Assembly (NCBI GenBank): GCA_013407085.1
Contig: JACCGJ010024111.1
Span: 19,954 to 83,953 of the forward strand
From: Atriophallophorus winterbourni
Lineage: Eukaryota > Platyhelminthes > Trematoda > Plagiorchiida > Microphallidae
DNA: 64,000 nucleotides
Reading direction: 5' to 3'
The number at the start of each line of letters is the position of its first letter. Position 1 is the stretch's first letter. The notes under the pieces were generated by a model. It was not told where the DNA came from. It ran no database searches and worked only from the letters and a program-made list of their open reading frames with translations. The position numbers and the translations under genes are program-made. Below, one piece after another: positions 29,736 through 64,000 of the stretch.

Positions 29736-29803
29736 ACTAGATGAATTATACAACAATGTGCCAAAACGACAAAACATAAATAAAAAAGGAACGTCACCGA
29801 AGT

Positions 29804-32808: not shown

Positions 32809-32860
32809 ACTGGATGAAATATACAACAATGTGCCAAAACGACAAAAAAATGAATAAAAA

Positions 32861-32873
32861 GGGGTCGTCACCA
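32861..32873 (-). other. Candidate primer-binding site (E1)
   Basis: On the minus strand TGGTGACGACCCC follows the inferred LTR end (CTGTCCACA, ACTT). The TGG start matches the CCA end of a tRNA, and the position just 3' of the LTR is right. The same sequence is in E2-E5 (for example 35,691-35,703). The tRNA is not identified. Confidence 0.45.
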
Positions 32874-32877
32874 AAGT

Positions 32878-35637: not shown

Positions 35638-35707
35638 ACTGGATAAAATATACAACAATGTGCCAAAACGACAAAAAAAATGAATAAAAAGGGGTCGTCA
35701 CCAAAGT

Positions 35708-36942: not shown

Positions 36943-37804
36943 GTTTTCAAACTGGAATATTGAACATTGTCAGCTCTGATTGGTTCAAACATTGTCCATC
37001 TCAGATTTATTTAGAACGTTTTTGAATTTTGGACTAAAATATAAGGCCTTGTCAGCTCTGATTGATTTACACATTGTCGATCTCAGAATGATTTAGAACG
37101 TCTGCAGATTTTGAATGGAATATTAAGCATTGTTCGCTTCGATTAATTTGAACACTGTGGATCTCTGATTCGTTCCAAACGTTCATAATTTATGAACTGA
37201 AATATTGAGCATTGTCAGCTCTGATTGATTCAAATATTGTCAATTTCAGATTGGTTCAAAACATTTGTAGTTTTCGAACTGAAATATTAAGCATTGTCAG
37301 CTATAATTGGTTCAACATTTTCGTAGTTTTTAGGCCTAAATATTAGGCATTGTCAGCTCTTATTGATTTAAAGATTGTCAATGTCAGATTGGTTCAAAAC
37401 GTTTGTAGATTTTGGACTGAAATATTGAGCATTCTTAGCTTTGATTAGTTCAAACATTGTGGATCTCATATTCGTTTGAAACGTTTGTATTTTTTGGACT
37501 AAAATATTTAGCATTGTCAGCTCTGACAAGTTTAGACAATGTCGATCTCAGATTAGTTCAAAACGATTGTAGACGTTCGACTGAAATATTGAGCATTTCT
37601 AGCTCTGATTGGTTTGAAACATTTTTTAGTTTATGGAATTAAATATTAAGCATTGTTAGCTATGATTAGTTCAAACATTTTCCATCTCAGATTGGTTCAA
37701 AATGTATCTAAATTTTGGACTAATATTTAAGGCAATGTCAGCTCTGATTGATTCAAACATTGTCGATATCAGATTGATTTAAAACCTTTGTAGTTTTTTG
37801 AACT
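36943..37804 (+). repeat. 82-bp satellite spacer 3
   Basis: About 10.5 satellite units, nearly identical to spacers 2 and 5. Confidence 0.88.
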
Positions 37805-38863: not shown

Positions 38864-39771
38864 ACTGGATAAAATATACAACAATGTGCCAAAACGACAA
38901 AAAAATGAATAAAAAGGGGTCGTCACCAAAGTTGTGGACAGGGATTGACTGTCAAATGTTCAACGTCACGACGATTGGGGAGTTGTTCGCAAATTTTGCT
39001 CAATAGAGCTTCAATTGAACGAACCAAAATGCGTATTTTCTCCGGTTGAGACAAATACTATACCAGTCGGAACACAAGATGTGATGCGAATTCAATTAAA
39101 ACGATCCAACTTGAGCACAGAAACCGAATTGATGCAATTCACGAATTAAGTACTTCTCGCCAAGTTAAAGAAAAATCAAATTCCAAATTGAGTACTATAT
39201 TGTCTGTGACGTGAGTTACGCGTAGTCCACCCGTTTCTCATTTCGTTAAATTTTAAAACAACAATTAGGATATTCTACGTTGCTGTAATTAACAACAATT
39301 ACAACAAAATCAACTATACAAACCTTAATTGTATAGGAACGTCACAGCAACAATGGGGCCAAATACTCCAGAATCAAATTCAATTCAAACAAAAGACGAC
39401 CTGATATGAAAATAATAAGAATCGATTTACCAAAATGTCTCCCAAACTTTCTGTGACAACGAAGAATGACAATCAAAATAGCGTCCAAATTCAAGCAAAA
39501 TACTGAAGCCCAAAATGGCAACCAAATTCCGCAACAATGACCGACAATGGCAGAAATAATAAATTAAAACAAACATTTGACCGAAGGCGTGTACCGAAAA
39601 GATTTACAATAACAAAAGCAATTACAAAAAGAAAAGTTTTATACCAAAATACTGTAGGAAAATTAAATACAAGCAAATTCTATTACACAAAATTCAGGTT
39701 TTGTAACTAGGTTCAAAATGAAAGGAATATTGAAGGAAAAAGAAGAATTTCAAACTACATTGAACCTCACA
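37805..39771 (-). mobile_element. Truncated BEL/Pao-type LTR element, copy E3
   Basis: 1,967-bp copy, same boundaries as E1, intact gag-protease frame, LTR uninterrupted. Very similar to E1 and E2, so it belongs to the youngest amplification group. Confidence 0.8.
38933..39771 (-). repeat. BEL-type LTR, copy E3
   Basis: 839-bp inferred LTR, same length as in E1, with TATAAAAC at 39,636-39,643 on the minus strand. Confidence 0.55.
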
Positions 39772-40412
39772 GTTTTCAAACTGGAATATTGAACATTGTC
39801 AGCTCTGATTGGTTCAAACATTGTCCATCTCAGATTTATTTAGAACGTTTTTAAATTTTGGACTAAAATATAAGGCCTTGTCAGCTCTGATTGATTTACA
39901 CATTGTCGATCTCAAAATGATTTAAAACGTCTGTAGATTTTGAATGGAATATTAAGCATTGTTCGCTCCGATTAATTCGAACACTGTCGATCTCTGATTC
40001 GTTCCAAACGTTCATAATTTATGAACTGAAATATTGAGCATTGTCAGCTCTAATTGATTCAAATATTGTCAATTGCAGATTGGTTCAAAACATTTGTAGT
40101 TTTCGAAATGAAATATTAAGCATTGTCAGCTATAATTGGTTCAACATTTTTGTAGTTTTTAGGCCTAAATATTAAGCATTGTCAGCTCTGATTGATTTAA
40201 AGATTGTCAATGTCAGATTGGTTCAAAACGTTTGTAGATTTTGGACTGAAATATTGAGCATTCTTAGCTTTGATTAGTTCAAACATTGTGGATCTCATAT
40301 TCGTTTAAAACGTTTGTATTTTTTGGACTAAAATATTTAGCATTGTCAGCTCTGACAAGTTTAGACAATGTCGATCTCAGGTTGATTTAAAACCTTTGTA
40401 GTTTCTTGAACT
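39772..40412 (+). repeat. 82-bp satellite spacer 4 (shortened)
   Basis: Same spacer as 2, 3 and 5 but ~212 bp shorter. It jumps from GTCGATCTCAG in one unit to GTTGATTTAAAACC of a unit further on, a deletion between homologous positions of two satellite units. Confidence 0.85.
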
Positions 40413-41470
40413 TTTCAACTTTCGATGTAGACCAAGTGTTGCTATCGACACATCAACTGGTGCACTAGGCATACAAAATTTCTCAACGAAACTCTGCGAG
40501 ATCAAAGTTGTATCAGAGCCATTATCAAGTGAAGCCACAACTGGGACAAGTCCAACTGGCGTGTCAATGATTACAGTCAGGTAGCCTAAGCTTACTGCTG
40601 TACTGAGAGCAGTAACACTGCAGTTTATACTTTTCAGTTGCTCATTAGGACGATCATAATGCAGCGAATAATGGTGTCGTCTACTACAATTTTCAACGGA
40701 ACAAGTATTCGTATTCATGCAATCGAATGCCCTGTGAGGAAAGCATAAGCGAACGTAACATATTACATGCTGCTTAGCCAAATTCCATCTGGCTTTTACG
40801 TCAGCCTCCTGATTAACAGGACAATCTTCTATCTTAGAGGTTCTCTACATTGAAAACATTCAACTAGCATTGGCCTTGGTTCCTTCGTAGTCATAAACAC
40901 TCTCCTTCCATCTGGCATTCTTGGTTTCTCTGATGGCGTCAAAGAGACAGATGCTCTATCTATTAGCATGCCAAATCTGCTCCTGGCAATTCTTGCTCTC
41001 CGAGAAACGAACTCGGTCAGACTGGCAAAATCAACTTCCGACCCGTCAGCAAGCATTGTATCCGCTGCGTCAGTCCACTGCTGTCGTAACGCAACAGGGA
41101 AGCATTTCACTAATCCTCCCAAAGTTGTGACTGAATTTAAATCAGCGTCACACTTCATTTGCTTTAATGTGATTTGGCAATTTTCCATTTTTATGCCCAA
41201 ATCAGACAAACCATCGACCTTGTTGGAAAGTCTTCTAGCTTCGTCGAGCAACTTCTCTAATTTTGACCTGGTAATAACGTGTGGAAGTCCGAACAAATCT
41301 TTCAAGTTTACTTCTTCAGCGACTCCTCGTCCTTCCTTTGTCAAGCACTCTATCGTTGATCTAGCATCATCTGAATCGCGCTTCAATTGTAACACTTGTT
41401 GAGAACTCGCAATGCTATGTCTATTATCATCGCTTCCCTTAGAAGCTATCTTAGAAGATATCTTAGGCAT
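40377..41470 (-). pseudogene. BEL/Pao gag-protease, frameshifted (E4)
   Basis: Start ATG at 41,470. The N-terminal half (gag core to the first Cys pair, CFQCREPL) is open to about 40,829. A one-base deletion near 40,838 (CTTAGAGG where sisters have CTTAGGAGG) breaks the frame inside the Cys/His region. The rest, from NLAKQHVICY through the CSVENCSRRHH block and the LDNGSD protease motif, is open in the shifted frame to 40,377. It would make only a gag core without its complete zinc region. Confidence 0.8.
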
Positions 41471-42365
41471 ACTAGATGAAATAAACGACAATGTGCCAAA
41501 ACGACAAAAATTAAATAAAAAGGGGTCGTCACCAAAGTTGTGAACAGGGATTGACTGTCAAATGTTCAAGGTCACGACGATTGGGGAGTTGTTCGCAAAT
41601 TTTGCTCAATAAAGCTTCAATTGAACGAACAAAATGCGTATTTTCTCCGGTTGAGACGAATACTATACCAGTCAGAAGACAAGTTGTGATGCGAATCCAA
41701 TTGAAACGATCCAACTTGAGCACAGAAACCGAATTGATGCAATTCACGAATTGAGTACTTTTCGGCAAGTTCGAAAGAATCAAATTCCAAATTGAGTACT
41801 ATTGTCTGTGACGCGCGTAGTCCACCCGTTTTTTTTATTTCGATAAATTCAAAACAACAATTGGGATATTCTACGGTACTGTAATGAACAACAATTACAA
41901 CAAAATTAACTATACAAACCTTAATTGTATAGGAACGTCACAGCAACAATGGGGCCAAATACTCCAGAATCAAATTCAATTCAAACAAAAGACGACCTGA
42001 TATGAAAATAAGAAGAATCGATTTACCAAAATGTCTTCCAAACTTTCTGTGACAATGAAAAATGACAATCAAAATAGCGTCCAAATTCAAGCAAAATACT
42101 GAAGCCCAAAATGGCAACCAAATTCTGCAACAATGACCGACAATGGCAGGAACAATAAATTAAAACAAACATTTGACCGAACGCATGTACGAAAAGATTT
42201 ACAATAACAAAAGTAATTACAAAAGAAAAGTTTTATACCAAAATACTGTAGGAAAATTAAATACAAGCAAATTCTATTACACAAAATTCAGGTTTTGTAA
42301 CTAGGTTCAAAATGAAAGGAATATTGAAGGAAAAAGAAGAATTTCAAACTACATTGAACCTCACA
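40413..42365 (-). mobile_element. Truncated BEL/Pao-type LTR element, copy E4
   Basis: Same truncated element. The LTR (827 bp) carries several small indels and shares variants with E0 and E5 (TTTTCGGCAAGTTCG), so it is intermediate between the E0/E5 and E1-E3 groups. Confidence 0.78.
41539..42365 (-). repeat. BEL-type LTR, copy E4
   Basis: Minus-strand LTR starting TGTGAGG at 42,365. Slightly shorter than E1 and E3 through small deletions, including one in the CGTAACTCACGTCAC region near 41,810. Confidence 0.55.
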
Positions 42366-43226
42366 GTTTTCAACTGGAATATTGAACATTGTCAGCTCTG
42401 ATTGGTTCAAACATTGTCCATCTCAGATTTATTTAGAACGTTTTTAAATTTTGGACTAAAATATAAGGCCTTGTCAGCTCTGATTGATTTACACATTGTC
42501 GATCTCAGAATGATTTAAAACGTCTGTAGATTTTGAATGGAATATTAAGCATTGTTCGCTCCGATTAATTCGAACACTGTCGATCTCTGATTCGTTCCAA
42601 ACGTTCATAATTTATGAACTGAAATATTGAGCATTGTCAGCTCTGATTGATTCAAATATTGTCAATTTCAGATTGGTTCAAAACATTTGTAGTTTTCGAA
42701 CTGAAATATTAAGCATTGTCAGCTATAATTGGTTCAACATTTTTGTAGTTTTTAGGCCTAAATATTAAGCATTGTCAGCTCTGATTGATTTAAAGATTGT
42801 CAATGTCAGATTGGTTCAAAACGTTTGTAGATTTTGGACTGAAATATTGAGCATTCTTAGCTTTGATTAGTTCAAACATTGTGGATCTCATATTCGTTTG
42901 AAACGTTTGTATTTTTTGGACTAAAATATTTAGCATTGTCAGCTCTGACAAGTTTAGACAATGTCGATCTCAGATTAGTTCAAAACGATTGTAGACGTTC
43001 GACTGAAATATTGAGCATTTCTAGCTCTGATTGTTTTGAAACATTTTTTAGTTTATGGAATTAAATATTAAGCATTGTTAGCTATGATTAGTTCAAACAT
43101 TCTCCATCTCAGATTGGTTCAAAATGTATCTAAATTTTGGACTAATATTTGAGGCAATGTCAGCTCTGATTGATTCAAACATTGTCGATCTCAGATTGAT
43201 TTAAAACATCTGTAGTTTCTTGAACT
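42366..43226 (+). repeat. 82-bp satellite spacer 5
   Basis: About 10.5 satellite units, nearly identical to spacers 2 and 3. Confidence 0.88.
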
Positions 43227-44285
43227 TTTCAACTTTCGATGTAGACCAAGTGTTGCTATCGACACATCAACTGGTGCACTAGGCATACAAAATTTCTCAA
43301 CGAAACTCTGCGAGATCAAAGTTGTATCAGAGCCATTATCAAGTGAAGCCACAACTGGGACAAGTCCAACTGGCGTGTCAATGTTTACAGTCAGGTAGCC
43401 TAAGCTTACTGCTGTACTGAGAGCAGTAACACTGCAGTTTATACTTTTCAGTTGCTCATTAGGACGATCATAATGCAGCGAATAATGGTGTCGTCTACTA
43501 CAATTTTCAACGGAACAAGTATTCGTATTCATGCAATCGAATGCCCTGTGAGGACGGCATAAGCGAACGTAACATATTACATGCTGCTTAGCCAAATTCC
43601 ATCTGGCTTTTACGTCAGCCTCCTGATTAAAAGGACAATCTTCTATGTTAGGAGGTCCTCTACATTGAAAACATTCAACTAGTATTGACCTCGGTTCCTT
43701 CGTAGTCATGAACACCCTCCTTCCATCTGGCATTCTTGGTTTCTCTGATGGCGTCGAAGAGACAGATGCTCTATCTATTAGCATGCCAAATTTGCTCCTG
43801 GCAAGTCTTGCTCTCCGAGATACGAACTCGGTCAGACTGGCAAAATCAACTTCTGACCCGTCAGCAAGCATTGTATCCGCTGCGTCAGTCCACTGCTGTC
43901 GTAACGCAACAGGGAAGCATTTCACTTATCCTCCCAAAGTTGTGACTGAATTTAAATCAGCGTCACACTTCATTTGCTTTAATGTGATTTGGCAATTTTC
44001 CATTTTTATGGCCAAATCAGACAAACCATCGACCTTGTTGGAAAGTCTTCTAGCTTCGTCGAGCAACTTCTCTAATTTTGACCTGGTAATAACGTGTGGA
44101 AGTCCGAACAAATCTTTCAAGTTTACTTCTTCAGCGACTCCTCGTCCTTCCTTTGTCAAGCACTCTATCGTTGATCTAGCATCATCTAAATCGCGCTTCA
44201 ATTGTAACACTTGTTGAGAACTCGCAATGCTATGTCTATTATCATTGCTTCCCTTAGAAGCTATCTTAGAAGATATCTTAGGCAT
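43191..44285 (-). pseudogene. BEL/Pao gag-protease with nonsense codon (E5)
   Basis: Start ATG at 44,285. A single substitution at 43,926-43,928 (TTAGTG in sisters becomes TAAGTG on the minus strand) puts a stop after about 119 codons, at the end of TTLGG in the gag core. Beyond it the frame is open again to 43,191, with the complete Cys/His region and the D-N-G protease motif. Apart from the stop it is collinear with E2 and E3, so the inactivation is recent. Confidence 0.8.
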
Positions 44286-45192
44286 ACTAGATGAAATAAA
44301 CGACAATGTGCCAAAACGACAAAAATTAAATAAAAAGGGGTCGTCACCAAAGTTGTGAACAGGGATTGACTGTCAAATGTTCAAGCTCACGACGATTGGG
44401 GAGTTGTTCGCAAATTTTGCTCAATAAAGCTTCAATTGAACGAACCAAATTGCGTATTTTCTCCGGTTGAGACGAATACTATACCAGTCAGAAGACAAGT
44501 TGTGATGCGAATCCAATTGAAACGATCCAACTTGAGCACAGAAACCGAATTGATGCAATTCACGAATTGAGTACTTTTCGGCAAGTTCGAGAAGAATTAA
44601 ATTTCCAAATTAATTACTGTATTGTCTGTGACGTGAGTTACGCGTAGTACACCCGTTTTTTATTTCGATAAATTCAAAACAACAATTGGGATATTCTACG
44701 GTACTGTAATGAACAACAATTACAACAAAATTAACTATACAAACCTTAATTGTATAGGAACGTCACAGCAACAATGGGGCCAAATACTCCAGAATCAAAT
44801 TCAATTCAAACAAAAGACGACCTGATATGAAAATAAGAAGAATCGATTTACCAAAATGTCTTCCAAACTTTCTGTGACAATAAAAAATGACAATCAAAAT
44901 AGCGTCCAAATTCAAGCAAAATACTGAAGCCCAAAATGGCAACCAAATTCCGCAACAATGACCGACAATGGCAGGAACAATAAATTAAAACAAACATTTG
45001 ACCGAAGGCGTGTACCGAAAAGATTTACAATAACAAAAGTAATTACAAAAAGAAAAGTTTTATACCAAAATACTGTAGGAAAATTGAACACAAGCAAATT
45101 CTATTACACAAAATTCAGGTTTTGTAACTAGGTTCAAAATGAAAGGAATATTGAAGGAAAAAGAAAAATTTCAAACTACTTTGAACCTTACA
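43227..45192 (-). mobile_element. Truncated BEL/Pao-type LTR element, copy E5
   Basis: Last copy of the composite array. Its gag 3' part groups with E3 (RGPPNIEDC), while its LTR groups with E0 and E4, suggesting exchange between copies. Plain satellite follows on the right. Confidence 0.78.
44354..45192 (-). repeat. BEL-type LTR, copy E5
   Basis: 839-bp inferred LTR, start TGTAAGGTTC at 45,192 as in E0, primer-site-like sequence just left of 44,354. Confidence 0.55.
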
Positions 45193-51100: not shown

Positions 51101-53583
51101 TCAAATATAAAGCACTGTCAGCTTTGATTGGTTCAAACATCGATTATCTCAAATTGATTAGAAAATTATGTAGTATTTAAACCTAAATATTAATCATTGC
51201 CAGCTCTGATTGGTTGAAATAATATGTATTTCAGATTGGTTTAAAACGTGTGTAGTTTTTGTACTGAAATATTGAGAATTGTCACCTCTTATAGGTTCAA
51301 ACATTGTCGATCTCAGGTTCGTTCAAAACATTTGTAATGAAATATTTAGCATTATCAGCTCTGATTGGTTCGAACAATGTCGATTTCAGATTCGTTCAAA
51401 ACTTTTGTAGATTTTCAACTGAATTATTAGGCATCATCAGCTCTGATTGGTTGACAATGTTTGCAGTTATTGGACCTAAATATTAAGCATTGTCAGCTCT
51501 GATTGATTTAAATATTGTCAATCTCCGTTTGGTTCGAAACTTTTGTAATTTTTAAACTGAAATGTTTGGCATCGGGAGCTCTGCCTGGTTTAAAATGTTT
51601 GAATTTTTTAAACTTAAATTTTAAGCGTTATCAGCTTTGATTGATTTGATGATTGTCAATCTCAGATTGGTTCAAAACGTTTGTAGAATTTAAACTGAAA
51701 TATTGAGCATTGTCTGCTCTGATTGGTTCAAAATATTTGCAGTATTTGGACTTGAAAATTAAGCATTGTCAGCTTTGATTGATTCAATGATTGTGAATCT
51801 CAGATTGGTTCAAATCGTTTGCTCTGGTTGGTTGTAACATTGTCGATCTCAGATTGATTCAAAACGTTTGTAATTTTCGAACTCAAATATATGGCATTGT
51901 CAGCTTTGATTAGTTCAAACATTGTTGTAAATTTTGATCTAAAAAATCAGACATTGTCAGCTTTGATTGAATCAAACATTGTCGATCTCAGATCGATTTG
52001 AAACGTTTGTAGTTTTTTCACTGAAATATCAAGCATCTTTTGCTCTGATTGGTTCATACATTAAAGAGCTCAGATTGGTTCAATATGTTTGTAGTTTTTG
52101 AAATGAAATATCAAGCATTGTCAGCTTCGATTGGTTCAAAATGTTTGTAATTTTTTGACCTAAATATTAAGCATTGTCAGTTCTGATTGATTTGAAGATT
52201 ATAAATCTCAGATTGCTTCAAAACGTTTGTAGATTTTGGATTGAAATAATAACCATTGTTATCAAACATTATCAGCTCTGATTGGTTCGAAATATTTGTA
52301 GTTTTTAGACATGTGTAATAAGCATTGTCAGCTCTAATTGATTCAAAGATTGTCAATCTTAGATTAGTTCAAAACGTTTGTAGATTTTGGACTGAAATAT
52401 TAAGCATTTTCAGCTCTGATTGGTTCAAACATTGTCGATCGCAGATTCGATCAGAACTTTTGTACTTTTTGGACTGAAATATCAAGCATTGTCAGCTGTG
52501 ATTGGTTTTAACCTTGTCCATCTAAGATTGATTTAGAACGTTTGTAAACTTTTAACTAAAATATAAGACATTGTCAGCTCTGATTGAATTAAACATTGTC
52601 GATCTCAGATTGATTTAAAACGTCTGTAGTTTCTTCAATGTAAAATTAAGCATTGTTCGCTCCGGTTGGTTCGAACACTGTGGATCTCATATTCGTTCCA
52701 AACGTTCGTATTTCAGGAACTGAAATATCGAGGATTTTCAGCTCTGATTGGTTCAAATATTGTCAATCTCAGATTGGTTCAAAACAATTTGTAGTTTTCG
52801 GACTGAAATATAAGGCATTGTCTGCTCTGATTGGTTCAAAATGGTTTTAGATTTTGGACTTGAATATCAAGCATTTTCAGCTCTGATTTATTCAGAGATT
52901 GTCAATGTGAGATTGGTTCAAATCATTTGTAGATTTTGGACTGAAATATTAGGCATTGTCAGCTCTGATTGGTTCAAACATTGTCGATTTCAGATTGGTA
53001 AAAAACGTTTGTAATTTTTGAACTCAAATATAAGGCATCGTCAGCTTAGATTATTGTAATAAATGTCCATTTCAGATTGGTTCAAAACGTTTTTTTTTGA
53101 ATTTTGGTCTAGAATATTGAGCATCGTCAGCTTCGACTGATTTAAACATTCTCGATCTCAGATTGACTCAAAACGTTTGTAGTTTCTCCACTAAAATATT
53201 TAGCATTTCAAGCTTTGATTGGTTTGAACATTAACGATCTCAGATTGGTTCAATACGTTTGTAGGTTTCGGACTGAAATATTAAGCATTGTCAACTGTGA
53301 TAGGTTCAAATATTGTCAATCTCAGATTGGTTCAAAACCTTTGTTGTTTTTGAACTGAAATATTAGGCATTGTCAGCTCTGATTGGTTCAAAATGTTTGT
53401 TTGGATTCAGATAATAATCTTTGTCAGCTCTGATTGATTTAGAGATTGTCAATGTCAGATTGATTTAAAACTTTTGTAGATTTTAGAATGAAATATTAAG
53501 CATTTTTTATCGCTGATTGTTTCAAACATTGTCGATCTCATATTCGTTAAAAGCGTTTGTATTCCTTAGCCTTAAATATTTAG
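45193..53583 (+). repeat. 82-bp AT-rich tandem satellite, right block
   Basis: About 100 satellite units with no gene. From ~47,560 onward the order of variant units parallels 7,780-14,300: GGTCGCATAATTG near 47,665 matches near 7,835, TTCTAGAGATTTCGGACAG near 51,005 matches 10,770, and GTTGACAATGTTTGCAG near 51,460 matches 11,073. It is a diverged third copy of the 6-kb higher-order unit. It stops abruptly at TTTAGC, where the ribozyme array starts. Confidence 0.9.
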
Positions 53584-53680
53584 CTACTCATAAAGTAGCG
53601 AGTAGACGAGAACTTCAGTTCAAATTGCGCCATCCGTCTACACAAATACTAGTTCGAAACGCGAAGAGTCCAGCGGATAC

Positions 53681-53722
53681 GCATAGCTGATGAGAGGCAA
53701 AACCTCGAAACCGGTCCTGTGC
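53681..53722 (+). ncRNA. Type I hammerhead ribozyme, copy 1
   Basis: Stem I GCATAG/CTGTGC, core CTGATGA and GAAA, stem II GAGG/CCTC with loop CAAAA, palindromic stem III ACCGGT, cleavage after GTC. Intact; loop II one base shorter than most. Confidence 0.85.
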
Positions 53723-53937
53723 TTCCGGTGAGATTTTAGCGTTTCGGAATGGTATTCTACTTCTGATCTATCCTGGGGTTGTAATAACCCTCGCGGCAAT
53801 ACGCCGTTGGATCAGTTGGGGCTTAGTTTAGTCCCTTCAGCTACTTATAAAGTAGCGAGTAGACGCGAACTTCGATTCAAATTGCGCCATCCGTCTACAC
53901 AAATACTAGTTCGAAACGCGAAGAGTCCAGCGGATAC

Positions 53938-53980
53938 GCATAGCTGATGAGAGGCAAAAACCTCGAAACCGGTCCTGTGC
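53938..53980 (+). ncRNA. Type I hammerhead ribozyme, copy 2
   Basis: Consensus 43-nt ribozyme: stem I GCATAG/CTGTGC (6 bp), CTGATGA, stem II GAGG-CAAAAA-CCTC, GAAA, stem III ACCGGT, predicted cleavage between 53,974 and 53,975. Flanking GGA upstream can pair with TCC downstream beyond a small TAC/T bulge, extending stem I. Confidence 0.88.
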
Positions 53981-54096
53981 TTCCGGTGAGATTTTAGCGT
54001 TTCGGAATGGTATTCTACTCTGATCTATCCTGGGGTTGTAATAACCCTCGCGGCAATACGCCGTTGGATCAGTTGGGGCTTAGTTTAGTCCCTTCA

Positions 54097-54113
54097 GCTA
54101 CTTATAAAGTAGC
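54097..54113 (+). promoter_or_regulatory. Conserved hairpin with TATA-like loop (representative monomer)
   Basis: GCTACTT-ATA-AAGTAGC forms a perfect 7-bp stem with a 3-nt loop and contains TATAAA. Present in nearly every monomer. Changes in copies are mostly loop-side insertions (near 55,397 and 56,942) or one stem base (53,590). It overlaps the A-box-like element. Confidence 0.6.
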
Positions 54114-54120
54114 GAGTAGA
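54110..54120 (+). promoter_or_regulatory. A-box-like element (representative monomer)
   Basis: TAGCGAGTAGA resembles the pol III A box (TRGCNNAGNGG) with a one-base spacing difference. It lies 56 bp upstream of the B-box match, a tRNA-like separation. Confidence 0.4.
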
Positions 54121-54165
54121 CGAGAACTTCAGTTCACATTGCGCCATCCGTCTACACAAATACTA

Positions 54166-54174
54166 GTTCGAAAC
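54166..54174 (+). promoter_or_regulatory. B-box-like element (representative monomer)
   Basis: GTTCGAAAC fits the pol III B-box core GTTCGANNC exactly. Kept in almost all monomers. Exceptions include TTTCGAAAC (56,230, 57,772), GTCCGAAAC (57,001) and GTTCTAAAC (58,029). Internal pol III promoters are known in schistosome hammerhead repeats; activity here is inferred. Confidence 0.55.
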
Positions 54175-54194
54175 GCGAAGAGTCCAGCGGATAC

Positions 54195-54237
54195 GCATAG
54201 CTGATGAGAGGCAAAAACCTCGAAACCGGTCCTGTGC
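54195..54237 (+). ncRNA. Type I hammerhead ribozyme, copy 3
   Basis: Consensus sequence, all core bases intact. CTGATGA at 54,201-54,207, GAAA at 54,222-54,225, predicted cleavage after C54,231. Confidence 0.88.
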
Positions 54238-54451
54238 TTCCGGTGAGATTTTAGCGTTTCGGAATGGTATTCTACTCTGATCTATCCTGGGGTTGTAATA
54301 ACCCTCGCGGCAATACGCCGTTGGATCAGTTGGGGCTTAGTTTAGTCCCTTCAGCTACTTATAAAGTAGCGAGTAGACGAGAACTTCAGTTCAAATTGCG
54401 CCATCCGTCTACACAAATACTAGTTCGAAACGCGAAGAGTCCAGCGGATAC

Positions 54452-54494
54452 GCATAGCTGATGAGAGGCAAAAACCTCGAAACCGGTCCTGTGC
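54452..54494 (+). ncRNA. Type I hammerhead ribozyme, copy 4
   Basis: Consensus sequence, core and three stems intact. Confidence 0.88.
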
Positions 54495-54709
54495 TTCCGG
54501 TGAGATTTTAGCGTTTCGGAATGGTATTCTACTCTGATCTATCCTGGGGTTTGTAATAACCCTCGCGGCAATACGCCGTTGGATCAGTTGGGGCTTAGTT
54601 TAGTCCCTTCAGCTACTTATAAAGTAGCGAGTAGACGAGAACTTCAGTTCACATTACGCCATCCGTCTACACAAATACTAGTTCGAAACGCGAAGAGTCC
54701 AGCGGATAC

Positions 54710-54752
54710 GCATAGCTGATGAGAGGCAAAAACCTCGAAACCGGTCCTGTGC
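54710..54752 (+). ncRNA. Type I hammerhead ribozyme, copy 5
   Basis: Consensus sequence, core and three stems intact. Confidence 0.88.
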
Positions 54753-54966
54753 TTCCGGTGAGATTTTAGCGTTTCGGAATGGTATTCTACTCTGATCTAT
54801 CCTGGGGTTGTAATAACCCTCGCGGCAATACGCCGTTGGATCAGTTGGGGCTTAGTTTAGTCCCTTCAGCTACTTATAAAGTAGCGAGTAGACGAGAACT
54901 TCAGTTCACATTACGCCATCCGTCTACACAAATACTAGTTCGAAACGCGAAGAGTCCAGCGGATAC

Positions 54967-55011
54967 GCATAGCTGATGAGAGGCAAAAAAACCTCGAAAC
55001 CGGTCCTGTGC
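54967..55011 (+). ncRNA. Type I hammerhead ribozyme, copy 6
   Basis: Core intact. Loop II lengthened by two A residues. Confidence 0.86.
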
Positions 55012-55225
55012 TTCCGGTGAGATTTTAGCGTTTCGAAATGGTATTCTACTCTGATCTATCCTGGGGTTGTAATAACCCTCGCGGCAATACGCCGTTGGAT
55101 CAGTTGGGGCTTAGTTTAGTCCCTTCAGCTACTTATAAAGTAGCGAGTAGACGAGAACTTCAGTTCTTATTACGCCATCCGTCTACACAAATACTAGTTC
55201 GAAACGCGAAGAGTCCAGCGGATAC

Positions 55226-55270
55226 GCATAGCTGATGAGAGGCAAAAAAACCTCGAAACCGGTCCTGTGC
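55226..55270 (+). ncRNA. Type I hammerhead ribozyme, copy 7
   Basis: Core intact. Loop II lengthened by two A residues as in copy 6, suggesting these neighbours share a duplication. Confidence 0.86.
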
Positions 55271-55485
55271 TTCCGGTGAGATTTTAGCGTTTCGGAATGG
55301 TATTCTACTCTGATCTATCCTGGGGTTGTAATAACCCTCGCGGCAATACGCCGTTGGATCAGTTGGGGCTTAGTTTAGCCCCTTCAGCTACTTATAAAAG
55401 TAGCAAGTAGACGAGAACTTCAGTTCAAATTACGCCAGCCGTCTACACAAATACTAGTTCGAAACGCGAAGAGTCCAGCGGATAC

Positions 55486-55528
55486 GCATAGCTGATGAGA
55501 GGCAAAAACCTCGAAACCGGTCCTGTGC
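55486..55528 (+). ncRNA. Type I hammerhead ribozyme, copy 8
   Basis: Consensus sequence, core and stems intact. Confidence 0.87.
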
Positions 55529-55742
55529 TTCCGGTGAGATTTTAGCGTTTCGGAATGGTATTCTACTCTGATCTATCCTGGGGTTTTAATAACCCTCGCG
55601 GCAATACGCCGTTGGATCAGTTGGGGCTAAGTTTAGTCCCTTCAGCTACTTATAAAGTAGCAAGTAGACGAGAACTTCAGTTCAAATTACGCCACCCGTC
55701 TACACAAATACTAGTTCGAAACGCGAAGAGTCCAGAGGATAC

Positions 55743-55785
55743 GCATAGCTGATGAGAGGCAAAAACCTCGAAACCGGTCCTGTGC
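55743..55785 (+). ncRNA. Type I hammerhead ribozyme, copy 9
   Basis: Consensus sequence inside the 43-nt core region. One change just outside it (CCAGAGGATAC). Confidence 0.87.
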
Positions 55786-55999
55786 TTCCGGTGAGATTTT
55801 AGCGTTTCGAAATGGTATTCTACTCTGATCTATCCTGGGGTTGTAATAACCCTCTCGGCAATACGCCGTTGGATCAGTTGGGGCTTAGATTAGTCCCTTC
55901 AGCTACTTATAAAGTAGCGAGTAGACGAGAACTTCAGTTCAAATTGCGCCATCCGTCTACACAAATACTAGTTCGAAACGCGAAGAGTCCAGCGGATAC

Positions 56000-56042
56000 G
56001 CATAGCTGATGAGAGGCAAGAACCTTGAAACCGGTCCTGTGC
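56000..56042 (+). ncRNA. Type I hammerhead ribozyme, copy 10 (weakened)
   Basis: Stem II closing pair next to the core is changed: CCTTGAAA instead of CCTCGAAA makes G-U at the 10.1-11.1 pair, expected to slow cleavage. Loop II is CAAGAA. Confidence 0.8.
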
Positions 56043-56256
56043 TTCCGGTGAGATTTTAGCGTTTCGAAATGGTATTATACTCTGATCTATCCTGGGTTTG
56101 TAATAACCCTCGCGGCAATACGCCGTTGGATCAGTTGGGGCTTAGTTTAGTCCCTTCAGCTACTTATAAAGTAGCGAGTAGACGAGAACTTCAGTTCACA
56201 TTACGCCATCCGTCTACACAAATACTATTTCGAAACGCGAAGAGTCCAGCGGATAC

Positions 56257-56299
56257 GCATAGCTGATGAGAGGCAAAAACCTCGAAACCGGTCCTGTGC
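56257..56299 (+). ncRNA. Type I hammerhead ribozyme, copy 11
   Basis: Consensus sequence, core and stems intact. Confidence 0.87.
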
Positions 56300-56514
56300 T
56301 TCCGGTGTGATTTTAGCGTTTCGGAATGGTATTCTACTCTGATCTATCCTGGGGTTGTAATAACCCTCGCGGCAAATACGCCGTTGGATCAGTTGGGGCT
56401 TAGTTTAGTCCCTTCAGCTACTTATAAAGTAGCGAGTAGACGAGAACTTCAGTTCTTATTACGCCATCCGTCTACACAAATACTAGTTCGAAACGCGGAG
56501 AGTCCAGCGGATAC

Positions 56515-56557
56515 GCATAGCTGATGAGAGGCAACAACCTCGAAACCGGTCCTGTGC
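56515..56557 (+). ncRNA. Type I hammerhead ribozyme, copy 12
   Basis: Core intact. Loop II is CAACAA, a change confined to the loop. Confidence 0.86.
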
Positions 56558-56771
56558 TTCCGGTGAGATTTTAGCGTTTCGGAATGGTATTCTACTCTGA
56601 TCTATCCGGGGGTTGTAATAACCCTCGCGGCAAAACGCCGTTGGATCAGTTGGGACTTAGTTTAGTCCCTTCAGCTACTTATAAAGTAGCGAGTAGACGA
56701 GAACTTCAGTTCTTATTACGCCACCCGTCTACACAAATACTAGTTCGAAACGCGAAGAGTCCAGCGGATAC

Positions 56772-56814
56772 GCATATCTGATGAGAGGCAAGAACCTCGA
56801 AACCGGTCCTGTGC
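56772..56814 (+). ncRNA. Type I hammerhead ribozyme, copy 13 (stem I altered)
   Basis: GCATAT instead of GCATAG removes the stem I pair nearest the core. Loop II is CAAGAA. Reduced activity expected. Confidence 0.78.
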
Positions 56815-57029
56815 TTCCGGTGAGATTTTAGCGTTTCGGAATAGTATTATACTTCGAACTATCCTTGGGTTGTAATAACCCTCGCGGCAATACGCCGTTC
56901 GATCAGTTGGGGCTTACTTTAGTCCCTCCAGCTACTTATAAATGTAGCGAGTAGACGAGAACTTCCGTTCGCATTGCACCATCCTTCTACACAAATACTA
57001 GTCCGAAACGCGAAGAGTCCAGCGGATAC

Positions 57030-57072
57030 GCATAGCTGATGAGAGGCAAAAACCTCGAAACCGGTCCTGGGC
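57030..57072 (+). ncRNA. Type I hammerhead ribozyme, copy 14 (stem I altered)
   Basis: CTGGGC instead of CTGTGC puts an A-G mismatch in the middle of stem I. Core intact. Confidence 0.78.
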
Positions 57073-57287
57073 TTCCGGTGAGATTTTAGCGTTTCGGAAT
57101 GGTATTCTACTTTGAACTATCCAGGGGTTGCAATAACCCTCGCGGCAATACGTCGTTGGATCAGTTGGGGCTTAGTTTAATTCCCTTCAGCTACTTATAA
57201 AGTAGCGAGTAGACGAGAACTTCAGTTCATATTGCGCCATCCGTCTACACAAATTTTAGTTCGAAACGCGGAGAGTCCAGCGGATAC

Positions 57288-57329
57288 GCATAGCTGATGA
57301 GAGGCAAAACCTCGAAACCGGTCCTGTGC
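57288..57329 (+). ncRNA. Type I hammerhead ribozyme, copy 15
   Basis: Core intact. Loop II shortened by one A as in copy 1. Confidence 0.85.
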
Positions 57330-57543
57330 TTCCGGTGAGATTTTAGCGTTTCGGAATGGTATTCTACTCTGATCTATCCTGGGGTTGTAATAACCCTCGC
57401 GGCAATACGCCGTTGGATCAGTTGGGGCTTAGTTTAGTCCCTTCCGCTACTTATAAAGTAGCGAGTAGACGAGAACTTCAGTTCTTATTACGCCATCCGT
57501 CTACACAAATACCAGTTCGAAACGCGAAGAGTCCAGCGGATAC

Positions 57544-57586
57544 GCATAGCTAATGAGAGGCAAAAAACTCGAAACCGGTCCTGTGC
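57544..57586 (+). ncRNA. Hammerhead ribozyme remnant, copy 16 (core mutated)
   Basis: The core reads CTAATGA: G5 of CUGAUGA is replaced by A, a position known to be essential. Stem II is also reduced (GAGG opposite ACTC). Predicted inactive. Confidence 0.8.
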
Positions 57587-57800
57587 TTCCGGTGAGATTT
57601 CAGCGTTTCGGAATGGTATTCCACTTCGAACTATCCAGGGGTTGTAATAACCCTCGCGGCAATACGCCGTTGGATCAGTTGGGACTTAGTTTAGTCCCTT
57701 CAGCTACTTATAAAGTAGCGAGTAGACGCGAATTTCAGTTCACATTACGCCATCCGTCTACACAAATACCATTTCGAAACGCGAAGAGTCCAGCGGATAC

Positions 57801-57843
57801 GCATAGCTGATGAGAAGCAAAAACTTCGAAACCGGTCCTGTGC
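57801..57843 (+). ncRNA. Type I hammerhead ribozyme, copy 17 (compensatory stem II)
   Basis: Stem II is GAAG-CAAAAA-CTTC in place of GAGG-CAAAAA-CCTC. Both sides changed so pairing is kept. Core, stem I and stem III intact. Confidence 0.88.
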
Positions 57844-58057
57844 TTCCAGTGAGATTTTAGCGTTTCGGAATGGTATTCCACTTTGAACTATCCAGGGGTT
57901 GTAATAACCCTCGCGGCAATACGCCGTTGGATCAGTTGGGACTTAGTTTAGTCCCTTCAGCTACTTATAAAGTTGCGAGTAGACGCGAACTTGAGTTCAC
58001 ATTACGCCATCCGTCTACACAAATACCAGTTCTAAACGCGAAGAGTCCAGCGGATAC

Positions 58058-58100
58058 GCATAGCTGATGAGAGGCAAAAACCTCGAAACCGGTCCTGTGC
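58058..58100 (+). ncRNA. Type I hammerhead ribozyme, copy 18
   Basis: Core intact. The base after stem I is changed (CTGTGCTCCC), affecting only the outer stem I extension. The B box of this monomer is also altered. Confidence 0.85.
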
Positions 58101-58314
58101 TCCCGGTGAGATTTTAGCGTTTCGGAATGGTATTCTACTCTGATCTATCCTGGGGTTGTAATAACCCTCGCGGCAATACGCCGTTGGATCAGTTGGGGCT
58201 TAGTTTAGTCCCTTCAGCTACTTATAAAGTAGCGAGTAGACGAGAACTTCAGTTCAAATTACGCCATCCGTCTACACAAATACTAGTTCGAAACGCGAAG
58301 AGTCCAGCGGATAC

Positions 58315-58357
58315 GCATAGCTGATGAGAGGCAAAAACCTCGAAACCGGTCCTGTGC
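58315..58357 (+). ncRNA. Type I hammerhead ribozyme, copy 19
   Basis: Consensus sequence, core and stems intact. Confidence 0.87.
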
Positions 58358-58571
58358 TTCCGGTGAGATTTTATCGTTTCGGAATGGTATTCCACTTTGA
58401 ACTATCCAGGGGTTGTAATAACCCTCGCGGCAATACGCCGTTGGATCAGTTGGGACTTAGTTTAGTCCCTTCAGCTACTTATAAAGTAGCGAGTAGATGC
58501 GAACTTCAGTTCACATTACGCCATCCATCTACACAAATACCCGTTCGAAACGCGAAGAGTCGGGCGGATAC

Positions 58572-58614
58572 GCATAGCTGATGAGAGGCAAAAACCTCGA
58601 AACCGGTCCTGTGC
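58572..58614 (+). ncRNA. Type I hammerhead ribozyme, copy 20
   Basis: Core and stems intact. Upstream flank changed (GTCGGGCGGATAC). Confidence 0.86.
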
Positions 58615-58828
58615 TTCCGGTGAGATTTTAGCGTTTAGGAATGGTATTCCACTTTGAACTATCCAGGGGTTGTAATAACTCTCGCGGCAATACGTCGTTG
58701 GATCAGTTGGGACTTAGTTTAGTCCCTTCAGCTACTTAAAAAGTAGCGAGTAGACGCGAACTTCAGTTCACATTACGCCATCCGTCCACACAAATACCAG
58801 TTCGAAACGCGAAGAGTCCAGCGGATAC

Positions 58829-58871
58829 GCATAGCTGATGAGAGGCAAAAACCTCGAAACCGGTCCTGTGC
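58829..58871 (+). ncRNA. Type I hammerhead ribozyme, copy 21
   Basis: Consensus sequence, core and stems intact. Confidence 0.87.
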
Positions 58872-59085
58872 TTCCGGTGAGATTTCAGCGTTTCGGAATG
58901 GTATTCCACTTTGAACTATCCAGGGGTTGTAATAACCCTCGCGGCAATACGCCGTTGGATCATTTGGGACTTATTTTAGTCCCTTCAGCTACTTATAAAG
59001 TAGCGAGTAGACGCGAACTTCAGTTCACATTACGCCATCCGTCTACACAAATACCAGTTCGAAACGCGAAGAGTCCAGCGGATAC

Positions 59086-59128
59086 GCATAGCTGATAAGA
59101 GGCAAAAACCTCGAAACCGGTCCTGTGC
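59086..59128 (+). ncRNA. Hammerhead ribozyme remnant, copy 22 (core mutated)
   Basis: The core reads CTGATAA: G8, whose 2'-hydroxyl acts in catalysis and which pairs with C3, is replaced by A. Predicted inactive or very slow. This is the last, truncated monomer of the array. Confidence 0.8.
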
Positions 59129-59164
59129 TTCCGGTGAGATTTTAGCGTTTCGGAATGGTATTCC

Positions 59165-59746
59165 ACTATGACCGAACCATCTCCACGGTCGTCTTTTGAC
59201 TACGGTTGATACCACCTCTCGACCAGTTTTTTTCAGGAGCTCTTCATTCGAAATGGTGTGTGGCCAAAAAATTCGTAGAATCCTTCTGAAGCAGTTAGTT
59301 TGAAACACGTTCATTCTGCGCTCAATGGCAGCAGTCGTCTTTCAGCATTCAGATGCATACAGCAACACACTCAGAACGTTGCTCTTTAAGAGTCTGATCT
59401 TCGTGTCAATGCTGAGAGCGGAGGATTTCCAAATGGTATTCAGCATGCAGAATGCTTGGTTCGCCTTCCCGATCCTTCTCCTGACCTCATCTTCACAGTC
59501 ACCATTTACATTCAGTTTGCTCCCAAGGTAGACTGTATCTGTAACCTCACTGAGCGGTTGACCGTCCACGAACACTGTTGGTTGCTCCGGAAAATTCTTC
59601 CGCATTACCTCCGATTTGCTAGCGTTAGTTTCTAAACCCACCGTCTTGCCAATTTCGGATAGTCGATCGCTCTTGATCTGGATGTCACTGATTTTGCACG
59701 CCAAGAGGGCAACATCATCCGCATAGTCCAGGTCTTCTAGCGGTCA
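59165..59746 (-). pseudogene. RTE-type LINE reverse transcriptase, C-terminal fragment
   Basis: Reverse transcriptase tail of a non-LTR element. On the minus strand, reading left from 59,746: LEDLDYADDVALL with the catalytic YADD at 59,714-59,725; NASKSEVM; VYLGSKLNVNGDCEDEVRRRIGKANQAF; KIRLLKSNVLSVLLYASEC; and, after a stop at 59,342, RRILRIFWPHTISNEELLKKTGR and WRWFGHS. These motifs and their order match the RTE/SR2-like clade. The stop replaces the Trp normally found after SEC (TGG to TGA). The fragment lacks endonuclease and the N-terminal RT motifs and is cut at 59,165 against the ribozyme array. Inactive. Confidence 0.8.
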
Positions 59747-60122
59747 CGGTGGGCGATATACTACTCCCAAAACACAGTCTTTGCCGTTAGCCAGTCGGAT
59801 TGAGCACCAGAGTGTATCCAGTAACACGATGTCTGGATCCGTAATCTCACGGCACAGAAGGTTTTGGCTATAATACAAAGCTACTCCTCCTGCTCTGGTT
59901 TCACGGTCATGACGAATAAGTGACATTCCTGGTAATGCTAGTTCACTATTTGTTTGCTGAGTCTGCAGCCACGTTTCCGTTACGGCGATGATGTCTGGTG
60001 AACATCTCAGAAAAACTGCACGCAGTTCACCGATTTTGTTTCCCAGATATTGTGCGTTGGTGTAGATGCAGGTCATAGATGTTTTTCTGAGCAAGGACGG
60101 GGTGTGATGAAGAAGGCTAGCG
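59744..60122 (-). pseudogene. CR1-type LINE endonuclease, N-terminal fragment
   Basis: APE-like endonuclease of a CR1-type element on the minus strand. CIYTNAQYLGNKIGELRAVF (first catalytic-site region), PDIIAVTETWL (glutamate motif), RHDRETRAGGVALYY and LGVVYRPP appear in the expected order. The frame stops at the TGA at 59,744-59,746, precisely where RTE reverse transcriptase sequence begins. The later His/Asp motifs and the whole reverse transcriptase of this element are missing. The frame probably enters from further right (SLLHHTPSL precedes), so the true start is upstream. Not functional. Confidence 0.68.
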
Positions 60123-60411
60123 TTGTGCAGAATATCTGTTAGGCCGACTCATCCAGAGTCGGCATCTGAAGGTTTTTTGCTTGCAAGGATGCTTGATCTT
60201 TTTAAGATTGTACTGTTGAAATACAGTGATCAATAGTATCGGCTGAATTTGTTTTTGACACGTCAACTACTGATTGACTTGGTAGTGTTTCTATTGAACT
60301 TCGTGGTGCATCTATATTTCCAATATTAAGTTTCGATGCGCTTACTATAATTTCTCACGGCATTTGTCTGCGGCCCTTTTCCCAACGAGGTTAGACCGTG
60401 TTCAACATATC
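60123..60411 (-). other. Linker between ORF1-like and endonuclease fragments
   Basis: No open frame or motif recognised. By position it should be the decayed ORF1-ORF2 junction of the CR1-type element. Confidence 0.4.
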
Positions 60412-61068
60412 TTAACGCGAAAACGTTATTTTAAAGGGCTTATGAACGATGACCTTATCATTCGTAGATTTGGGGATGCGAAACGTGTCCGTCACAGCTA
60501 CATCATGCAAGTCAAGTCTATCACTGAGGAATCTCCATTGTAGCTGATCGTGTTTGCGCTGCACTGCTTTATTAGTTGCTTCATCAGCTTCTGGGACTCC
60601 GAAAGGATTAAACTTCGACCATCCCTCTGCTTCGTTTGGTCTTGTTGCTGGAAGTTCCGGGCCCGTTCCCACCAGGGCACATCAACCAAGATCCTTGTAG
60701 CGGTCTCCCTACGCAGAAGAAAAGCGGATACTAAGATGTTTCCAAGATCCCTTTTAGAGTTGACCGTGATTTTAAGCAGCCTTGGCTGGTCCCGATTTGA
60801 GTAGGTAGGTTTACGATTCAGTCGCATCATTGATAGTGGTTTAACTGGAACCAAGTGCATGTTGTTGCACAATTTTCCATTCTTCTTTATCGTGCTTTAA
60901 CCTGTCCCCTAGTAAGGTGGCACTCGTTTTCTTTACGTCGGTGCTAATCACGCTTAGTTCATGGAGCGAATGTACATTTTGCGTTTGGCGTTTTAGCTGG
61001 CTACTGGACGTTTCATATGTCTTGGATGAAATACATATCATGTCAACTTTGGGATTATTTTGCACCAT
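60412..61068 (-). pseudogene. Probable CR1-type LINE ORF1 remnant, frameshifted
   Basis: Three overlapping minus-strand frames cover this stretch and read as one decayed protein. The first, 61,068-60,841, is low in motifs. The second contains QPRLLKITVNSKRDLGNILVS, LLRRETATRILVDVPWWERAR. The third contains NPFGVPEADEATNKAVQRKH, LQWRFLSDRLDLHDV and DTFRIPKS. The style (basic, RP-LLK motif, DTFRIPK) recalls CR1-element ORF1 proteins, and the position upstream of the endonuclease fragment fits. At least two frameshifts. The assignment is inference from resemblance. Confidence 0.45.
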
Positions 61069-63755
61069 GACTTTTGGTATTGAAACTGAGGGTTCTCGCT
61101 GAACCTTTAAATGAGCACTTGGCTTCAGCTTCGTATCTTGTTGCGTACCAGGGATGTTTTGGGCGGACAGGCCTCCAACAGTCGCATTTATAAAGGTTGC
61201 CTTTTAATGAAAAGAACGCTCCTCAAGACTCTCTGACACATTTGCAACAGCTGAACCTTCGTGTTGAAAGAATTAACGTTTATCAGACTGGTATTATCGT
61301 CAGTGGTTTCTGATTGTTCGAGCAGTTAAATCTGCGTTTGGCTTAGCTCAACAACCAATGTCAATATTATAGATGTATCTATGACTGAAATTACAATGAG
61401 CAATCACTAGTAATTGAACATGCATTACTGATGAATCGGTGGAGTTCGTTGCGATTCTAACTTACCATTGACAAAAGAACACTATGATAATATAAAGATG
61501 TGTAATCACTTTTTCTGTGGCTGTATCGAAACATCACAAAACATGTAGTGCTGGATAATTGCGTGGCCTTTCGGTATCGAAAGATTACATGTTGTAGAGG
61601 TGGAAAGTGCACTGGTTAAGATTTTCTCAGAACAACTCTTAATTGATGCGCAGAATGCCACATTCCATCATGACACACGAAAAGGACATGGTGAAAAGCG
61701 CGATAACAAAATGGACATCCCACATAAATTCGCGGGACACACACTGGGAGAACTGTGTGAGTAAGGCTTAAGTGAAAACACGTCTGAAAACAGCATCTAT
61801 CAAACAAAATACAATTCAAATTGATTGGTCTAATGATGCCGACAAAATGAAGGCTTGAATTTGACCAGCTAGCAAGAAATCTACTGCGAAAACCAAACGT
61901 TATCACTATCGGGAAAGGAGTACTGAGTATTTTCTCCTGGTTCTAAGGTTTGTATACTAAAGGACGTCGTTCATTGTCATGCACGTAGTGAACGCTTTCT
62001 ATTGTGAAGTGGAATTTCGTAGTCGATACAAGTAACGTTTTGATGGTTGACCTTGAGAGGGGATTGTTACGCAATTGATTTTGGTGGAGGAACGTTTTTT
62101 GGAGTAAGCTGGTTGAAAGAAATGCCTATGATATTTGATTAAAACATTTACATGCCTAAAATAATAAACCTAATGAACCTCTCTAATTATAAGCAATACG
62201 TTTGACCTGAATTGATAAATTTTCATTTAAGGTGCGCCAATATGAGCTGTTTTAATAGAAATTTGAAATGAACCCGAATTCATAATTTCACGTTTTCCTT
62301 TCACTTGAACCATGCATAAAGTATTCAAAATTCATATGACAAAACACGGAACTCGTATAATCCAGCGTGCGCACAAATGAGGTTTTCATCGTAAGCTATT
62401 CTCACAAATGATAATGACATCACGAAATCTTTTAACCCTTATTACATACGCAAGAATCACGGTCTGTCTGGCTGCTACCCAAGTTGATACGTTTGGCCGT
62501 ACGGCGGGAGCACTGAAAAAGCTAATTTCCGAACATCACGCAAGTTAGTTGCACGAAACCTTATCCAAGAAGTGAAATAATTCGATCTATGCCCATCTGT
62601 TTCACAGCAGTTACTAGGTGTTCCCGAATATGGGTTCTCAGTGGTTTACACAGTTCTCTGCTACATGTAACAAAGTATTACCTGGGTTACCAAAGTAATT
62701 TGTTGCTCACATCCCCATCCCTTGCACACCACAACACATTACTTTGGTCATGCATAAGCGCCTTGAGTGCTTTGACGAAGAATCACTTTGTGATTCTGTG
62801 TCTCAACATCGTGGTTCGTTGTACGAACCCTATATAACAGTTGGCATACAAGTATAACTTTATTAGCTGGGTTGTTCGGATGATGGCATTGACAACAGCC
62901 ATATATCACTCAGGCGAGAAGTTTGTGATCGCTGATAATCTTGGCTAACATTGACATCGACCATTAGAGTTTCCACAAAATCACGAGACATTTGTTCCGT
63001 TAAATACTTGATGACGCTCATATTCATTGGCCATTTGTCACTTCACATATGACTTTGTGTTGTAAAACCTGATGTAAACTATCGAATATGATATATGTGT
63101 CTCATATTGTGTCTTTTAATCAAGAAATGCGAAATAATATTAGGATGAAGTTGTTTTAATTACCTTTTCAATTCACTGAAACAACTCCGTCATTCCTAAA
63201 AGCAACTTTTAGAAAATATCAACCAATGTATTTGTCAAAGAAACACTTGAATTGACATCCGGTAAGATAAACCGCAGTACTTTATATTTTCACCCAAGTC
63301 GAAGCATTTGAATACCTCTACCGAGTCTCGCCCTCTCATATGCATCCCGTGCAGCATCCCCTGCAACAAAGTTTCGATAATATGAACTCAATTTAAATTC
63401 ATATTTATACAAAATTAATTAGATTAATAATAGTGGAGTTGCCAAGAGATATATTATCATAAGGGGGAGATAATGAGGCTAGGTTGAGTAAATTTTATTC
63501 CATCGAAGTTGCAAGTAGACGTCAACAACCGTCAAATTTAAGCAATTTCGGCAAAAAGCATTAAAAGCTAAATAGATCCGCTTCTGCTCACAAGTAATGT
63601 TTTCAAAATTAGGTATTAACGGTCGAGAAACCGACAAATCGACAAAATTTTGATGGCCTCATACAATGTGGCGTATAAAGAAAGCAAGTCCAAGCTACCG
63701 CATACATTTGCAGTAGAGGTGATAAAGCCATGTGTATTTAATTAAACTCGTCCCG
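61069..63755. other. AT-rich non-tandem region, no gene recognised
   Basis: About 2.7 kb without tandem structure. Open frames are short: 96 codons on the minus strand at 61,616-61,906 and 82 codons on the plus strand at 62,589-62,837. Neither shows a recognisable domain or codon bias that can be judged by eye. A TATATAA occurs near 62,831. It is possibly old dispersed-repeat sequence. Nothing further can be supported. Confidence 0.5.
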
Positions 63756-64000
63756 CTGATCCAACGGCGTATTGCCGCGAGGGTTATTAACCCCAGGATA
63801 GATCAGAGTAGAATACCATTCCGAAACGCTAAAATCTCACCGGAAGCACAGGACCGTTTTCGAGGTTTTTGCCTCTCATCAGCTATGCGTATCCGCTGGA
63901 CTCTTCGCGTTTCGAACCAGTATTTGTGTAGACGGATTGCGCAATGTTAATCGAGGTTCGCGTCTACTCGCTACTTTATAAGTAGCTGAAGGGACTAAAC
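63756..64000 (-). repeat. Inverted copy of the 257-bp hammerhead repeat (runs off window)
   Basis: Minus-strand monomer of the same family. It begins at CTGATCCAACGGCG and continues past the hairpin (GCTACTTATAAAGTAGC in reverse) into the next monomer, so at least part of a second unit lies beyond the window. It belongs to the TCTACTCTGATCTATCC subfamily. Confidence 0.88.
63846..63888 (-). ncRNA. Type I hammerhead ribozyme, inverted copy 23
   Basis: On the minus strand: GCATAG, CTGATGA, GAGG-CAAAAA-CCTC, GAAA, then AACGGT in place of the palindrome ACCGGT, GTC, CTGTGC. Core and stems I and II intact. The stem III palindrome is broken at one position. Confidence 0.82.

Follow-up and report, generated by a model that had tools for sequence, protein, structure and literature searches.

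Non-LTR (long terminal repeat) retrozymes described from metazoans are non-coding tandem repeats of 150-450 bp units, each carrying one hammerhead ribozyme, with a GC content below 50% (PMC7229834). Newt satellite 2 and the axolotl HHR_Amex1 are tandem satellites with units of about 330 bp, in which helix III consists of one base pair closed by a palindromic tetraloop (PMC7229834, PMC6155905). In Schistosoma, the Sm-alpha and W36.2 W-elements consist of type I hammerhead repeats in tandem beside retroelement sequence, the W36.2 units measuring 332-335 bp in S. mansoni (PMC8490949). Here we describe a tandem array of 257-bp units in the trematode Atriophallophorus winterbourni (assembly GCA_013407085.1, contig JACCGJ010024111.1), located at 53582-59171 on the plus strand of a 64,000-nucleotide stretch (forward-strand positions 19,954 to 83,953 of the contig) which was analysed as a whole and is hereafter called the window. 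With a probability of roughly 85%, judged from its sequence features, the array is a metazoan-type non-LTR retrozyme, that is, a non-coding, non-autonomous repeat that would spread via RNA.

Set beside the published descriptions of the retrozymes of coral, mussel and axolotl, the array matches by its unit of 257 bp, its 22 copies, its GC content of 47.1% and its lack of coding sequence, and differs in hiding its catalytic core in the predicted circle and in having a helix III like that of axolotl and newt. It has in common with the newt and axolotl satellites the one-base-pair helix III capped by a palindromic tetraloop as well as the tandem organization, and with the Schistosoma elements the tandem type I hammerheads adjoining retroelement sequence; its unit is shorter than those described for the amphibian satellites and for W36.2. 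Cervera and de la Pena describe retrozyme unit sequences and sizes as species-specific (PMC7229834), so that a unit unlike others is to be expected. A search of the literature found no paper on a hammerhead in a 257 bp tandem repeat, and exact DNA patterns of the unit had no matches in viral contigs (three patterns) or in prokaryotic genome contigs (one pattern); since these collections hold viruses and prokaryotes, the zero matches say little about animals. Placed next to its relatives by description, the array fits as a further member of the known retrozyme class and adds a well-preserved 257-bp example to those of animals.

Tandem Repeats Finder delimited an array with a period of 257, comprising 21.7 copies with 95% matches, at 53582-59171 (53579-59171 by BLAST). 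The Tandem Repeats Finder limits agree to within 4 bases with the extent of 53584-59167 proposed in an initial annotation, and the use of AGCTACT as cut point yielded 21 full units, each 256-259 bp long, together with a truncated one, bearing out the approximately 22 tandem monomers of 257 bp announced there. Pairwise identity among units averages 95.5% (range 90.3-99.6%), and the sequence GAAACCGGTC is present 22 times in the array with a spacing of 257-259. Units 1-12 carry 0 to 7 differences to the majority consensus, units 13-21 carry 6 to 18, and the truncated unit 22 carries 4; unit 5 (54611-54867, plus strand), with 0 differences, is a suitable representative. The longest stop-free frame spans 86 codons, and the array is non-coding.

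A putative type I hammerhead, predicted to self-cleave, was recognized in each unit. An Rfam scan of the window at gathering thresholds returned no hits; an E-value-based Rfam search of 53400-59400 matched the family RF02275 Hammerhead_HH9 to all 22 units on the plus strand, with scores of 33.2-44.1 bits and E-values of 4.8e-9 to 1.6e-5, the top-scoring hammerhead lying at 58303-58374 (44.1 bits, E 4.8e-9). The Rfam search that the initial annotation had suggested for its hammerheads is negative by the first standard and positive by the second. Because all units descend from a common ancestor, these hits count as one strong match and not as 22 independent ones. The likeness to Hammerhead_HH9 lies in the core, the UAC of the internal loop and the CAAAAA of loop II; the difference lies in the scores, which stay below gathering, and in helix III, where five model positions are absent in the alignments printed (4 of the 22). 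HH9 itself is known as one conserved locus in amniotes. The array shows that Rfam default thresholds can overlook hammerheads with a collapsed helix III.

The ribozyme is composed of helix I (GCATAG/CTGTGC, with one U-G pair), an outer helix (CGGA/TCCG) across an internal loop, the core CTGATGA, helix II (GAGG/CCTC) closed by the loop CAAAAA, and the elements GAAA, CCGG and the cleavage triplet GTC. That GAAA and the GTC site occur in every monomer, as first annotated, was confirmed by GAAACCGGTC, which is intact in 22/22 units. The same universality had been claimed for CTGATGA and for a loop II of 6 nt; the former is intact in 20 units and mutated to CTAATGA in unit 16 (57445-57701, plus strand) and to CTGATAA in unit 22 (58987-59171, plus strand), which is truncated at the array end, while the latter has 6 nt in 18 units but counts 5 nt in units 1 and 15 and 8 nt in units 6 and 7. 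A CUGANAA change, as found in unit 22, is described as having made a Schistosoma candidate inactive in an assay (PMC8490949). The helix I pairing, taken at first to be perfect, includes the U-G wobble and so is not perfectly Watson-Crick; a helix I pair is broken in units 13 and 14. When G-U pairs were allowed, the core together with helices I and II was found to be kept in 18/22 units, and because the outer helix loses a pair in units 9, 17 and 18, the units that also keep all four outer pairs number 15 (16 if the A-U pair adjoining the internal loop is left out). The earlier figure of 17 of 22 copies with core and all three stems comes near to these counts, but a full stem III was overstated, helix III within one molecule being a single A-U pair around CCGG. 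With this correction of the third stem, the hammerhead and retrozyme interpretation fits the features that can be tested from the sequence.

The sequence ACCGGU around helix III is self-complementary, the single A-U pair enclosing the palindrome CCGG, and the formation of helix III costs energy in the model (-6.2 kcal/mol, versus -12.1 kcal/mol without it). Hammerheads of the same one-pair type, known from newts and from the axolotl (HHR_Amex1), are described as efficient in cleavage when dimeric and inefficient when monomeric (PMC7229834), and palindromic loops that would allow hammerhead dimers have also been described (PMC3088659); most invertebrate retrozyme members are reported with a stable helix III (PMC7761336). 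Cleavage in the present array would probably be most efficient as a dimer of adjacent units, a view which is based on the palindrome and the amphibian precedents and not on energies. A dimer of neighbouring hammerheads is fully nested in a tandem transcript. When a transcript of two units was modelled with flanks of 100 bases, the dimer form (-191.6 kcal/mol) and the monomer form (-191.7) came out equal, both lying above the unconstrained fold (-203.9); without the flanks, the dimer reached -112.4 kcal/mol, two monomers -100.2 and the unconstrained fold -117.9, so that fold energies of this two-unit transcript fail to separate the two cleavage modes.

The sense circle of the consensus unit folds at -93.8 kcal/mol, compared to -63.0 +- 5.2 kcal/mol in 300 dinucleotide shuffles (z -6.0, 0/300 as low), while the antisense circle is ordinary (-67.8 kcal/mol, z -1.3). 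Since only the sense circle falls far below its shuffles, the strand carrying the ribozyme looks, in these models, to be shaped to fold. A 76-pair model taken from the consensus fold was tested on the 22-unit alignment, where 98.1% of cells are paired. In two of its pairs both partners are replaced in a compensating manner: a helix II pair in unit 17 (57702-57958, plus strand; G-C to A-U, alignment columns 117/128) and, outside the ribozyme, a pair of the GTAGACG/CGTCTAC helix in unit 20 (58473-58729, plus strand; C-G to U-A, columns 28/57). The observed number of double changes was reached in 5/500 shuffles, the covariation score in 5/500 and the number of further pair types in 214/500. Intact, broken and compensated neighbours in one array offer material for the study of dimer cleavage and of how circles avoid being cut again.

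A 23rd copy of the unit, overlooked by the initial annotation, lies in inverse orientation at 63756-64000 on the minus strand (95.5% identity by BLAST) and runs off the window. It forms a second locus some 4.6 kb from the array, bringing the loci in the window to two in all. Its hammerhead, at 63829-63900 on the minus strand, matches Hammerhead_HH9 with 35.7 bits (E 2e-6), and its CCGG has become ACGG, so that the palindrome is lost. This copy carries the majority variant, which is therefore likely to be the older or the active form, as far as the sequences tell. The two loci also differ in the phase of their 3' ends, the minus-strand copy ending near unit position 234 and the array near 181-185; such differing end points, two ends only, are better explained by an element copied from a circle or multimer than by one with fixed ends.

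From these features and from the described relatives we infer a cycle in which read-through transcription of the plus strand would yield multimers, and type I hammerheads would sever every unit after GGTC, most efficiently when two adjacent hammerheads pair through the palindromic ACCGGU in the dimeric mode. This would release RNAs some 257 nt long that bear a 5'-OH and a cyclic phosphate at their ends and are predicted to adopt a rod shape with side arms. By analogy with relatives, host tRNA ligase may close these unit RNAs to circles, and the reverse transcriptase of an autonomous element may then copy the circle into tandem cDNA, which would be inserted elsewhere.

Signals for transcription were sought in the unit. 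A polymerase III promoter was rejected, the best combination of A box and B box (13/19 positions) being equalled in 186/200 shuffles and the best single boxes in 49/200 (A box) and 138/200 (B box); TATAAA at unit position 8, considered as a promoter, is present in 20/200 shuffles and was rejected as well. In this respect the unit differs from Sm-alpha, which is called SINE-like (short interspersed nuclear element; PMC8490949), whereas no polymerase III boxes better than those of shuffles occur here. According to PMC7761336, retrozymes seem to be without promoters, and the present null result is in line with that description. The only TTTT of the consensus is at unit position 154, directly after the ribozyme. 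TTTT is able to stop polymerase III, and if this polymerase transcribed the array, it might stop at that position.

Several observations weigh against the retrozyme interpretation. Every Hammerhead_HH9 match scores under the Rfam gathering score of 52, and the GC content of 47.1% is above the 45% given in one figure legend of PMC7229834. Variation in the ribozyme suggests sequence constraint, but the reduction is not strong: in the 55-base segment containing it 14 cells are variant, where segments of this length around the unit average 31.5 and 18/257 are equally low; its distinct changes number 13, compared with 17.1 on average, and 45/257 segments are equally low. Covariation support for the fold is weak; the percentage of paired cells was reached in 11/500 shuffles, two double changes were also seen in one of six slid controls, and the covariation term of RNAalifold is slightly unfavourable (+0.33). 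No promoter was found in the unit when polymerase III boxes and TATAAA were compared with shuffles. A target-site duplication was looked for at the one complete array and not found; the longest word common to its two ends measures 7 bases and on one side falls within the array. Target-site duplications of retrozymes are described as not always present and as >4 bp when present. Lastly, the hammerhead-enforced fold is 6.1 kcal/mol above the best circle fold, in which the catalytic core is hidden, a gap repeated in 9/9 units with the exact ribozyme sequence, as computed with an energy model that omits loop-loop contacts, which favour the hammerhead. Most, not all, animal retrozymes are described as leaving the hammerhead free in the predicted circle (PMC7229834), a feature that is usual and not defining.

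In the predicted unit circle, the core is masked by pairing of its GCTG with the CGGT of helix III. All four of these pairs are formed in 18/21 full units and three in one more, the two units with mutated motifs being unscored; two of the four are G-U pairs, and the bases concerned are conserved for catalysis anyway, so that their conservation is no evidence for such a lock. A built-in switch, by which dimers would cut in multimers and the released circle would lock itself through core CUG-CGG(U) pairing and so be prevented from re-opening, may be envisaged on this basis and appears unlikely.

A considerable, although on balance doubtful, possibility is that the array is today an ordinary satellite, derived once from a retrozyme and maintained as a passive relic by unequal crossing-over and gene conversion. 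Variants in alignment columns 182, 187, 191, 198 and 247 are common to units 16, 17, 19, 20 and 21 and absent from unit 18 (units 12, 13 and 14 carry some of them), which indicates that units exchanged sequence, as in satellites; from these shared variants we infer local exchange between units after insertion. Near units are also slightly more alike than distant ones (mean identity 0.962 at lag 1 versus 0.950 at lag 11), the array adjoins another large satellite, and the lack of a recognizable promoter points the same way. A passive state accords poorly, however, with the preservation of core and helices I and II in 18/22 units and with an inverse second copy about 4.6 kb off that has a different end point. 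Far less probable is an origin of the units as repeats of a Penelope-like or Terminon element, in which terminal repeats bear minimal hammerheads. The reduced helix III and the tandem copies recall the minimal hammerheads as described in PMC7761336, but these are described without helix III or loop-loop contacts, whereas loop II and the internal loop of the array match HH9; moreover, the array is devoid of coding sequence, and Pfam detected no Penelope domain in the five open reading frames (ORFs) scanned beside it. A chance hammerhead likeness in a structured satellite is hardly credible, because although the loose motif CTGATGA..GAAA..GTH also occurs at three minus-strand sites outside the repeat and is insufficient as evidence alone, and although the 22 copies amount to one ancestral event, the full covariance match, reaching E 4.8e-9, spans helices, internal loop, loop II and cleavage triplet and is sufficient, and a helix II pair is compensated.

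Beyond the retrozyme loci, the window contains remains of other repeats. The right end of the array cuts a LINE (long interspersed nuclear element) remnant at 59172-60148 on the minus strand, which is not part of the element and contains PF03372, PF20049 and a partial PF00078; its frame reads ...KRRPWRWFGH up to the array junction. Within it, part of an endonuclease runs straight into the C-terminal end of a reverse transcriptase, and the remnant has 21 protein matches, the best with 47% identity. Between this remnant and the second retrozyme copy, 60149-63755 is a single-copy-like stretch, whose two ORFs (132 and 120 aa) had no Pfam match above the cut-off. To the left of the array (1-53581), a diverged 82-bp satellite extends over much of that part of the window, with inverse stretches, for example at 4282-6639. 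The minus strand of 31447-44721 holds five gag-like coding copies, starting near 31447, 34275, 37501, 40213 and 42923, which we take to be BEL/Pao-like. For the gag-like ORF a single distant protein relative was retrieved, with PF03564 (33% identity over 76%), and the copies are 94-99% identical by BLAST to the one used as query, a shorter piece being located at 29576-30171.

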